The translations under genes were made by a program, and so were the position numbers. From assembly GCA_017650105.1 (NCBI GenBank), contig JAGCFO010000024.1, positions 1 to 64,000 on the forward strand: a DNA stretch of 64,000 bases, written 5' to 3'. The notes under the pieces were generated by a model that had not been told where the DNA came from, did no database searches, and saw only the letters and a list, made by a program, of their open reading frames with translations. Position 1 is the first letter of the stretch, and each line of letters begins with the position of its first letter. This DNA comes from Bacteroidaceae bacterium. Its GTDB lineage: Bacteria > Bacteroidota > Bacteroidia > Bacteroidales > Bacteroidaceae. Of the stretch, positions 14,680 through 60,691 are shown one piece after another.

Positions 14680-14779
14680 ATTTTTTCCTTCTCCAAAAAA
14701 ATTTTTTCTTTCTAAATAAAAATTTTTCCCTTCTTCATATCGCGAGATTTGTTCTCCAAAAAAAATTATTCCTTCTCCA
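14680..14779 (-). repeat. Mosaic palindromic element, copy 3
   Basis: On the minus strand it contains GGAGAACAAAT, CTCGCGA, TATGAAGAAGGGAAAAA and a further diverged GAAAGAAAAAATTTTTTTGG part. Its upstream edge forms the last codons of truA (MEKE and stop). It is the longest copy, about 100 bp. Confidence 0.85.
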
Positions 14780-20041: not shown

Positions 20042-20091
20042 GAGAGAAGGCAGAAAAGTGCTGCCAACAAGGCATTCTCGACAGTGCGAAT

Positions 20092-20170
20092 TTTGGAGAA
20101 CAAATAATTTTTTTTGGAGAACAAATATCGCGATATGAAGAAGGGAAAAATTTTTCTCGACAAAGAAAAA
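20092..20170 (+). repeat. Mosaic palindromic element, copy 4
   Basis: Two GGAGAACAAATA modules in tandem, then TCGCGA, then TATGAAGAAGGGAAAAA and a tail TCGACAAAGAAAAA, which is shared with copy 5. The centre ATATCGCGATAT is a perfect palindrome. This is the most complete copy of the core. Confidence 0.85.
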
Positions 20171-40739: not shown

Positions 40740-40809
40740 AAAAAATTTTTTTCCTTCTTCATCTCGCGAGATTCCTTCTCCAAAAAAATTTTTCCCTTCT
40801 CGAAAAAAT
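40740..40809 (-). repeat. Mosaic palindromic element, copy 6
   Basis: On the minus strand it shows GAGAAGGGAAAAA, a T-run, GGAGAAGGAATCTCGCGA, and GATGAAGAAGGAAAAAAA. It lies in the leader of lysS, between the lysS promoter (40865-40896) and the start codon, so it would be transcribed at the head of the mRNA. Confidence 0.85.
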
Positions 40810-57373: not shown

Positions 57374-57483
57374 GGTCGGCAGCATCCTCTCACGAAGATT
57401 CGGCTTCGCATTCCTGCCGTTTCACGAAAGCAAGAGAAAGCATTTTCCAAGTAGAAGAACAGAACCCGAAATTATTCTTTGAG

Positions 57484-57574
57484 CATATCGTGATATGAAG
57501 AAGGGAAAAAATTTTTTTCCTTCTCCAAAAAAAATTATGTGTTCTCCAAAAAATATTTTGGAGAACACATAATT
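57484..57574 (+). repeat. Mosaic palindromic element, copy 9
   Basis: It has ATATCGTGA, TATGAAGAAGGGAAAAA, then TTTTTTTCCTTCTCC, then a perfect inverted repeat. The inverted repeat arms are 57533-57551 and 57556-57574, 19 bp each with a 4-base loop, carrying the GTGTTCTCC/GGAGAACAC module. Confidence 0.85.
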
Positions 57575-57679: not shown

Positions 57680-57710
57680 GAAAAAAAAGAAGGTCGTCCT
57701 CCCGACGACC
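57680..57710 (-). terminator. Terminator of the MVLDF unit
   Basis: On the minus strand GGTCGTC pairs with GACGACC around GGGAG (arms 57710-57704 and 57698-57692), followed by TTCTTTTTTTT. The stem is 7 bp and GC-rich, with a long T-tail. Confidence 0.75.
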
Positions 57711-57747
57711 AATCTTTCTACATTAAAAATCTAATACCATGAAAAAC
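57685..57747 (-). ncRNA. Putative short transcript with micro-ORF MVLDF
   Basis: The promoter at 57754-57783 and the terminator at 57680-57710 bound a transcript of about 60 nt. It contains ATG GTA TTA GAT TTT TAA (57740-57723), a five-residue reading frame MVLDF, and nothing else. The nearest downstream minus-strand gene is far away. I recall similar sequences being common in Prevotella and Bacteroides genomes, but could not check. It may be a small RNA or a leader without its gene. Confidence 0.5.
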
Positions 57748-57753
57748 ACGGTG

Positions 57754-57783
57754 CAAAAGTACTGCTTTTCCGTTAACTTGCAA
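57754..57783 (-). promoter_or_regulatory. Promoter TTG-N19-TACTTTTG of the short transcript
   Basis: On the minus strand TACTTTTG (57761-57754) has TTG (57783-57781) exactly 19 bases upstream. Transcription should start around 57747, 37 bases before the terminator stem. Confidence 0.7.
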
Positions 57784-57892: not shown

Positions 57893-59338
57893 CTAGAAAT
57901 TGCCCTCGCGCCAGAAAGTAGGAGTCAGCACGAGGAGAACCGAATAAAGCTCGAGGCGTCCGACAAGCATCAGGAAACAGCTGAACCACTTGACGGCAGT
58001 TGGAAATCCCACGCAGGAGATACCAGGAACAATAATTCCCACATTGCCTAAGCAGCAGAGCGAAAGCCCGTAGGAATTGGAAAAGTCAAGCCCGCAGATG
58101 ATGAAGATGAGCCAGCCGAAGAACACCAGCAGCACATAGAGGCACACGAAGGTAAGCACCGTAGTACGGGTACTTGAGGAAATGACTTCCCCATTCATTC
58201 TCACAGGCAACACGGCATTCGGATGAAGAATGCGCCTGAACTCGGCAGCGATGCTCTTTGTGAAAATGGCTATACGGCTGCTTTTCATAGCGCCGCTTGA
58301 CGAACCTCCCATAGCGCCGAAATACATCGAGAAGCCAAGAATCATCCACATCCACGAGGGCCAGATAGAATAGTTGGTGCATGCAAAACCCGTTGTTGTC
58401 TGGGTAGAGACAACCATGAAGATTGCATCACTTACAGCTGTGATGAAATCGCAGTTTTCGCGATGAACAAGTCCTATGGTGATGATAGTTGTAAAAATGA
58501 GCACAATCAAGAGGTACCAATGGAACTCGCTGCTTCGGAAGAGATCGCGGAACTTACCCTTGAGCAACATCAGGTAGATGAGTGTGTAGTTGATTCCTCC
58601 CACAAACATAAATGTCACCAGCACCCACTCGATAGAGATGGAATGGAACGAGGCAATGCTCTCGTTTCGCGTGGAGAAGCCTCCTGTGGAGATTGTCGTG
58701 AGCCCGTGACAGATAGCTTCGAAGGGTTGCATGCCGCAGATCCAAAGCGAAATGGCGCAAAGGATAGTGAGGCTGACGTATACAGTAAGAATCCAGCGCG
58801 CTGTGACTGCCACACGCGGATTTGCTTTCTTCTTGGCATATCCTGTTGCCTCAGCAGCAAACAGTTGTACACCGCTGAAGCCGAACATAGGAAGTACGGC
58901 AACCGTAAAGAACACTATTCCCAAGCCTCCCAGCCATTGACTCATGCAACGCCAAAGCAACGTGGCTCGAGGAATGGCTTCGGTATCGTTAATGACTGTA
59001 CATCCAGTGGTAGTAAATCCCGACATGCTCTCGAAGAAAGCATCCGTAAAGTTAGTGATAAGCCCGCTAAGAAGCAAGGGAAGCGTGCCCACAAGGGCAA
59101 AAAGTACCCACGAAAGGGTAATAGTGAGGTAGCTGTCGCGACGTGAATATTTCTTTTCTCCCCCTTTGCCGAAATAGAGCAGCCAAAGTCCTACCAACAC
59201 AGTTATGAGTGCCGAAGCGAGGAAGGCAAAGAAATCGTCCCCGCCGAAGAAGAGGGCCACAGCAGCACATCCTGCCATAATGGTGGCAAGAAGCATGAGC
59301 AGCGAGCCGAGGATGCGAAGGATGGTTTTAATGTGCAT
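57893..59338 (-). CDS. trkH: TrkH-family potassium uptake protein
   Basis: A 481-residue inner-membrane potassium transporter subunit that partners with TrkA. Four pore loops of the K+ channel-like fold are visible: SGFTTTGCTV, STGGFSTRN, TQTTTGFACTN and CLGNVGI, each with the glycine of the selectivity filter. WRCMSQWLGGLGIV is the signature of the first half. It lies 18 bases downstream of trkA and is the last gene of the dxs-trkA-trkH unit. Confidence 0.94.
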   Translation of the reverse strand: MHIKTILRILGSLLMLLATIMAGCAAVALFFGGDDFFAFLASALITVLVGLWLLYFGKGGEKKYSRRDSYLTITLSWVLFALVGTLPLLLSGLITNFTDAFFESMSGFTTTGCTVINDTEAIPRATLLWRCMSQWLGGLGIVFFTVAVLPMFGFSGVQLFAAEATGYAKKKANPRVAVTARWILTVYVSLTILCAISLWICGMQPFEAICHGLTTISTGGFSTRNESIASFHSISIEWVLVTFMFVGGINYTLIYLMLLKGKFRDLFRSSEFHWYLLIVLIFTTIITIGLVHRENCDFITAVSDAIFMVVSTQTTTGFACTNYSIWPSWMWMILGFSMYFGAMGGSSSGAMKSSRIAIFTKSIAAEFRRILHPNAVLPVRMNGEVISSSTRTTVLTFVCLYVLLVFFGWLIFIICGLDFSNSYGLSLCCLGNVGIIVPGISCVGFPTAVKWFSCFLMLVGRLELYSVLLVLTPTFWREGNF

Positions 59339-59356: not shown

Positions 59357-60691
59357 TTAGAAATACTTTTCGAGCCTTTTTATCATAGAGTCGAGGCAGA
59401 ACACGACAACATGGTCTCCTGCCATAATCTGGGTGTTACCATTTACCAGCATTCCCACTCCGTTGCGTACCAGCCCTCCAAAGGTGGCTCCCTGCGGAAG
59501 GTCGATGTCGCGCACCAGACTTCGTGTCACACGTGCCTTCTCTGAAACGGTGAACTCAGCAACGTCAGCATTGGCAAGGGTAAGGCTCTTCACGTTGTCA
59601 ACGTCAGCATCAAGCAGCATCTGATAAATATACGAGGCTGCGATTTTTTTCTTGTTGATGACGTTGCCAATATCCAGATTCTCAGCCATAGCGATGAAAT
59701 CGATGTTCTCCACTTCGGCAATTGTTTTGAAAGTGCCGTACTGTTTGGTGGAAAGGCAGGTAAGGATATTCGTTTCAGCGTTGTCGGTAAGGGCAACAAA
59801 TGCTTGCGTGCTGTTGATACCTTCTTGCAAGAGCAAGTCTTTGTCGCGCCCGTCTCCGTTGATTACCATCACGTTGCTGGGCAAGTGCGCATTGAGCCAT
59901 TCGCATTTGTCTCTGTCGCTTTCGATAACTTTCACCGACATTTCATCGCTTATCAGCTGCGCAGCACGCACGGCAATGCGACTTCCTCCCATAATCATCA
60001 CGTTTTTCACCTTCTGATAGGCTTCCTTGCCGCAGATGACGCTGATGTAATTGATTGTCTTACGCATTGTCATGAAATAGACAAGGTCGTTTGGCAATAT
60101 CATGTCGTTTCCTCTGGGGATGAGCGTTTCCTCTCCTCTTTTAATAGCGACAACATGATAAGGCTGCTCCTTAGGCAAATCTCTGACAGCATGATTGACA
60201 ATCATTGCGCCTTCTCTCACTTTCACGCCAAGCATAACCAAAGCACCGTTGCACAGCTCTGCCCACTGGCGTATCCAGCTCAAGCGCAAGCTGTCAGCTA
60301 TCTCGTGCGCTGCGAGCATTTCAGGATAGATAAGCGAGTCGATACCTAATCCCTTAAAAAACTCTTTATTTTTCGGTTGGATGTATTCGTAGTTATCCAC
60401 TCGAGCCAAAGTCTTCTTAGCTCCAAGACTGTGAGCGATGATGCAAGCTGTAATGTTACGCCCCTCTTCGGGAGTAACTGCAACGAAAAGGTCTGCGCCA
60501 TTTATCCCGGCGTCCTTCAGCGTTTTGATGGAGGTTGGATTTCCTTCGAAAGTGAGCAAATCGAAATTCGATTCCAGCTTGCTCAGTTTCTCGGCACTCT
60601 CGTCAATGAGGGTAATGTCTTGCTTTTCGTTTGAAAGCAGTTTAGCCAAATGGGTGCCTACCGCTCCTGCTCCTACGATAATTATTCTCAT
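59357..60691 (-). CDS. trkA: Trk potassium transport regulator TrkA
   Basis: A 444-residue cytoplasmic gating subunit that binds nucleotides and controls TrkH. Two tandem RCK units are visible: the first Rossmann fold starts MRIIIVGAGAVGTHLAKLLS, with the acidic end ITLIDESAEKLSKLE, and the second has VMIMGGSRIAVRAAQLI. Each is followed by a TrkA-C domain (GAMIVNHAVRDLPKEQ and TRSLVRDIDLPQGATFGG). It is 13 bases after dxs and 18 before trkH. Confidence 0.94.
   Translation of the reverse strand: MRIIIVGAGAVGTHLAKLLSNEKQDITLIDESAEKLSKLESNFDLLTFEGNPTSIKTLKDAGINGADLFVAVTPEEGRNITACIIAHSLGAKKTLARVDNYEYIQPKNKEFFKGLGIDSLIYPEMLAAHEIADSLRLSWIRQWAELCNGALVMLGVKVREGAMIVNHAVRDLPKEQPYHVVAIKRGEETLIPRGNDMILPNDLVYFMTMRKTINYISVICGKEAYQKVKNVMIMGGSRIAVRAAQLISDEMSVKVIESDRDKCEWLNAHLPSNVMVINGDGRDKDLLLQEGINSTQAFVALTDNAETNILTCLSTKQYGTFKTIAEVENIDFIAMAENLDIGNVINKKKIAASYIYQMLLDADVDNVKSLTLANADVAEFTVSEKARVTRSLVRDIDLPQGATFGGLVRNGVGMLVNGNTQIMAGDHVVVFCLDSMIKRLEKYF

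Follow-up and report, generated by a model that had tools for sequence, protein, structure and literature searches.

The minus-strand unit at 57749-57680 of the window, i.e. the whole 64-kb stretch of Bacteroidaceae DNA analysed here, very probably encodes, in an uncultured bacterium of the ruminant gut, a small RNA of the FopS family which, judged by its sequence, would act by pairing of its seed with the starts of mRNAs. The unit is a further member of an already published sRNA family, and the unexpected point is the apparent lack of the FopS-binding protein RbpB in the genus.

The FopS unit and its family

When the window was compared with Rfam (4227 families, cmscan), RF04319 (BTncRNA_FopS) was found at 57749-57680 on the minus strand with an E value of 6.4e-07 for the whole window. 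The match covers the model at full length (positions 1-71) and scores 63.4 bits against a curated gathering cut-off of 56. Because a curated RNA family is matched at this E value among 4227 families, the unit is not a chance match, and the small RNA proposed by the sequence-only reading was borne out.

Promoter, short reading frame and strong terminator had been described as following one another within about 100 bases, and all of them are present between 57783 and 57680 on the minus strand. The promoter, TTG-N19-TACTTTTG at 57783-57754, is of the Bacteroidota primary-sigma type, is also found before other FopS copies and is followed, after 4 bases, by the RNA unit of ~70 nt. The motif TTG-N19-TAnnTTTG has two matches in the window, of which only the one at 57783-57754 has a terminator close behind. 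The Rho-independent terminator (57710-57681, minus strand) comprises a GC-rich hairpin with a 7-bp stem and a 5-nt loop (GGTCGTC-GGGAG-GACGACC, 57710-57692), then TTCTTTTTTTT, with a T run. For a sequence that starts 3 nt before the inferred 5' end, the RNA fold has a z-score of -3.9, and none of 200 shuffles folded as well. Transcription from this promoter would thus yield an RNA of ~70 nt with an open 5' end, the terminator hairpin forming its 3' half.

Covariation of the stem, which had been suggested as a check, was observed as well: among 24 distinct hairpins, all six pairs counted show compensatory changes, with 3-6 standard pair types each. The hairpins were set in register by a script, as MAFFT misplaced them between genera, and were picked for pairing, so that their being 100 % paired is partly by construction and the evidence lies in the variety of compensating pairs only.

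FopS, the 'family of paralogous sRNAs', was described in 2025 in Bacteroides thetaiotaomicron, which harbours 14 paralogues, with 12-15 in other Bacteroides (Ruttiger et al., PMC11697453). Each FopS RNA has a canonical sigma-ABfr promoter, a single-stranded 5' part with the seed R1' and a terminator hairpin; in B. thetaiotaomicron the 5' end has been shown to pair with the start-codon regions of mRNAs, mainly those of SusC-like glycan importers, by which translation is blocked, and RbpB, which binds FopS RNAs, relieves this block (PMC11697453). The unit of the window resembles the B. thetaiotaomicron FopS genes in its promoter type, the start of the RNA, the intergenic site and the presence of paralogues in one genome, as well as in the open 5' end and the terminator hairpin, both by prediction here. 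The 21-nt seed at its 5' end (57749-57729, minus strand), GUGUUUUUCAUGGUAUUAGAU, is identical letter for letter to the RF04319 consensus. In contrast to B. thetaiotaomicron, the genome of the window has two copies instead of 14, no RRM_1/RbpB-type protein was found in this genome or its genus, and the linker behind the seed reads TTTTTAATGTAGAAA instead of TTAAGGTTAATAAA. This deviation of the linker, i.e. TTTTTAAnGT for TTTAAGGTT, and the low copy number (two, compared with 12-15 in Bacteroides) were counted against the FopS assignment.

A second sRNA, GibS (RF04182), has its first 21 nt (the R1 seed) in common with the unit except for one base. Regardless, membership of GibS was rejected, since the unit scores only 31.5 bits where the cut-off is 115 and has no 3' part of GibS length; a search for GibS in the genome of the window found none.

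FopS was present in all 18 congener genomes, mostly with two copies each, and in 18/18 sampled other genera of the family, in one of them below the cut-off only. Many of the matching records of the genus come from the gut of sheep, goat, cattle, water buffalo and deer. Outside the Bacteroidaceae, the distribution in a whole-genome collection is patchy, and no paper on FopS outside this family was found in the literature searched. Records of P. nigrescens and Prevotella sp. oral taxon 299 scored above the cut-off, which, together with the B. thetaiotaomicron family, substantiates the like sequences in Prevotella and Bacteroides that the earlier reading had mentioned.

Several particular arrangements were seen among the copies. 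Some congeners harbour tandem FopS pairs ~280-350 bases apart (loci L080, L086, L090, L100, L106 and L108). FopS with its promoter was also found on 11 IMG/VR viral contigs (L179, L182-L184 and L186-L188 among the loci), those checked scoring 73-82 bits; two of them, L179 and L186, have two tRNA genes within ~510 bases. At locus L151 (G005:C46), a start-like stretch carries the seed complement twice (aatctaataccattctaataccatgaaaaaaag) and is perhaps a decayed FopS copy.

Genomic neighbourhood

FopS lies 144 nt behind trkH (K+ uptake; 57893-59338, minus strand; Pfam TrkH, E value 7.7e-57), which is on the same strand, as is trkA beyond it (59357-60691; TrkA_N, 4.2e-46). Downstream there is only sprA (SprA_N, a motility/secretion protein), convergent on the opposite strand; the earlier remark that no gene lies behind the unit therefore holds. 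The order of trkH and FopS is kept in two relatives of other species (L083 and L096), and the second FopS copy of the genome has neighbours of its own, which are kept in L103.

This arrangement allows for the possibility that FopS acts chiefly as the trkAH 3' end, i.e. a 3'UTR-derived sRNA that also serves as operon terminator and is tied to potassium uptake, all the more as one of the 14 FopS RNAs of B. thetaiotaomicron is 3'UTR-derived (PMC11697453). However, FopS has a well-formed promoter of its own, and other copies sit elsewhere, e.g. at L001, where both flanking genes are on the opposite strand. We consider such a main role improbable.

A dispersed mosaic intergenic repeat also occurs in the window, at 57480-57574, near position 142 and at 14700-14763, 20091-20121 and 40787-40808. 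It is built of words of ~21 bases (TTTTTTGGAGAACAAATAATT, ATATCGCGATATGAAGAAGGGAAAAATT and their variants), which occur in both orientations and often form palindromes, and a 19-bp hairpin at 57533-57574 belongs to it. A search of the genome of the window gave 48 matches, and the word was not encountered in 218 kb of loci from congeners.

The seed, the MVLDF frame and predicted targets

The five-codon frame ATG GTA TTA GAT TTT TAA (MVLDF) does exist at 57740-57723 on the minus strand, beginning within the seed, as had been noticed earlier, but it is not conserved. Further copies had been proposed as a way of judging both the stem and the frame, and 53 distinct ones were found, with a near-invariant seed, of which only 30 encode MVLDF followed by a stop. 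In the others, the frame reads MVLDY (one copy), runs on (10 copies) or has no ATG (12 copies, ATG being replaced by ATA); thus the start codon is kept in 41/53 copies, 11 of which run on or change in sequence. All listed copies of the genus of the window except three have MVLDF followed by a stop, and outside the genus the frame has ATA, runs on or is changed.

By comparison, 19 of the first 21 positions of the RNA are invariant over 56 copies, the remainder being position 1, with a single exception, and position 12, which is either G or A, while the promoter spacer and the linker vary. The promoter element TAnnTTTG precedes FopS in 53/53 distinct copies; the distance from TTTG to the RNA start is exactly 4 nt in 55/56 copies, and the TTG box is found at N19 in 39/56. 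Position 12 of the seed coincides with the last base of the ATG, which is why the start codon can change within an otherwise fixed seed. Read as its reverse complement (ATCTAATACCATGAAAAACAC), the seed moreover resembles a translation start region, which fits the published function of FopS, since the CAU in the RNA lies opposite the target's AUG. Given this start-like complement, and a seed that is nearly invariant while the frame varies, MVLDF is what the antisense seed yields when read as codons: on sequence grounds, it is a by-product of the latter and not a conserved leader peptide or gene. The ATG would thus arise by chance from the seed's own letters, and the frame is not considered a gene.

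These data also bear on two further explanations, both of which we regard as very unlikely. The first, an attenuator that has lost its operon, supposes that the short frame encoded a leader peptide which formerly governed termination ahead of an operon downstream, and it was suggested by the succession of promoter, short ATG frame and terminator within 100 nt. However, among 49 copies FopS is followed by a same-strand gene in 25 and by an opposite-strand gene or none in 24, 12/53 copies lack the ATG and a further 11 do not keep the frame, and FopS family members are stand-alone sRNAs (PMC11697453). An attenuator with leader peptide was therefore rejected, there being neither a conserved same-strand downstream operon nor a conserved leader frame. 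The second, a gene for a translated and functional MVLDF protein, could draw on the frame's conservation within the genus, but the leader before its ATG is only 9 nt long, the frame is not kept outside the genus, a one-base insertion destroys the stop in three same-genus copies in which the RNA is not lost, and sORFs were ruled out within the FopS loci of B. thetaiotaomicron (PMC11697453).

For the FopS RNA itself, the identity of the seed suggests that the invariant 5' end would base-pair around the start codon of mRNAs that encode outer-membrane and secreted glycan-use proteins and so block ribosome entry. Predicted targets in the genome of the window, including SusC-like mRNAs, are suggestive only. 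At 23 susC starts, the mean energy of the 25-nt seed duplex was lower than that of 285 of 300 shuffled seeds, which is borderline, and slightly lower than at 38 genes of the window (p 0.048, likewise borderline), strong duplexes across the start codon being predicted for the susC genes at L056, L063 and L059. Four of the best five non-self seed complements in the genome are situated at start codons, of genes for secreted or membrane proteins (-20.7 to -24.6 kcal/mol), namely a secreted protein of unassigned family, a nitroreductase lipoprotein, a membrane protein and a serine hydrolase. Across the genus, seed complements lay in register at start codons in 8/20 cases, as did those of a control with scrambled upstream half (8/20), i.e. 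there was no enrichment; this equal share is probably due to ATGAAAAA being common at gene starts. Because the scrambled control did equally well, the mechanism is taken from the FopS family and not from the target predictions.

FopS and the apparent absence of RbpB

No match to RRM_1 (PF00076, the RbpB type) was found in the genome of the window or in its 18 congeners (19/19 genomes), and a search with an RRM protein as query likewise gave no match. The same RRM_1 search did find matches in the Bacteroides control and in seven of the 18 other genera sampled from the family. The remaining 11/18 sampled genera had none, several of these genomes being 94-100 % complete, although FopS is present; one RRM_1-negative genome, G031, is 99 % complete and carries eight FopS copies. 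The congeners are for the most part incomplete MAGs, and the search could have missed an RRM that has diverged strongly, but incompleteness does not explain 19/19 empty genomes. Loss of the RRM protein in Prevotella-like genera was not reported in any paper found in the literature searched.

Since FopS is kept in RRM_1-negative genomes, it would not be tied to RbpB. In this genus, judged by the absence of such a protein, FopS probably acts without being counteracted by RbpB as it is in Bacteroides. Considering that the seed is retained unchanged beside no detectable RRM-1 in this genus and in over half of the genera sampled from the family, it is tempting to speculate, with about even chances of being right, that FopS does not depend on RbpB, the one protein partner known for it, and works there either bare or with another RNA-binding protein, the antagonism between RbpB and FopS being a lineage-specific addition or one that these lineages have lost.

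An sRNA family described only recently, which tunes glycan uptake in dominant gut bacteria, now extends to an uncultured genus of the ruminant gut, and the look of such units, i.e. a micro-ORF followed by a terminator, is an effect of the antisense seed. The apparent absence of RRM-1 beside a conserved FopS bears on how sRNAs act in Bacteroidota without Hfq or ProQ, and the RRM_1-negative genomes offer natural settings for testing FopS without RbpB.
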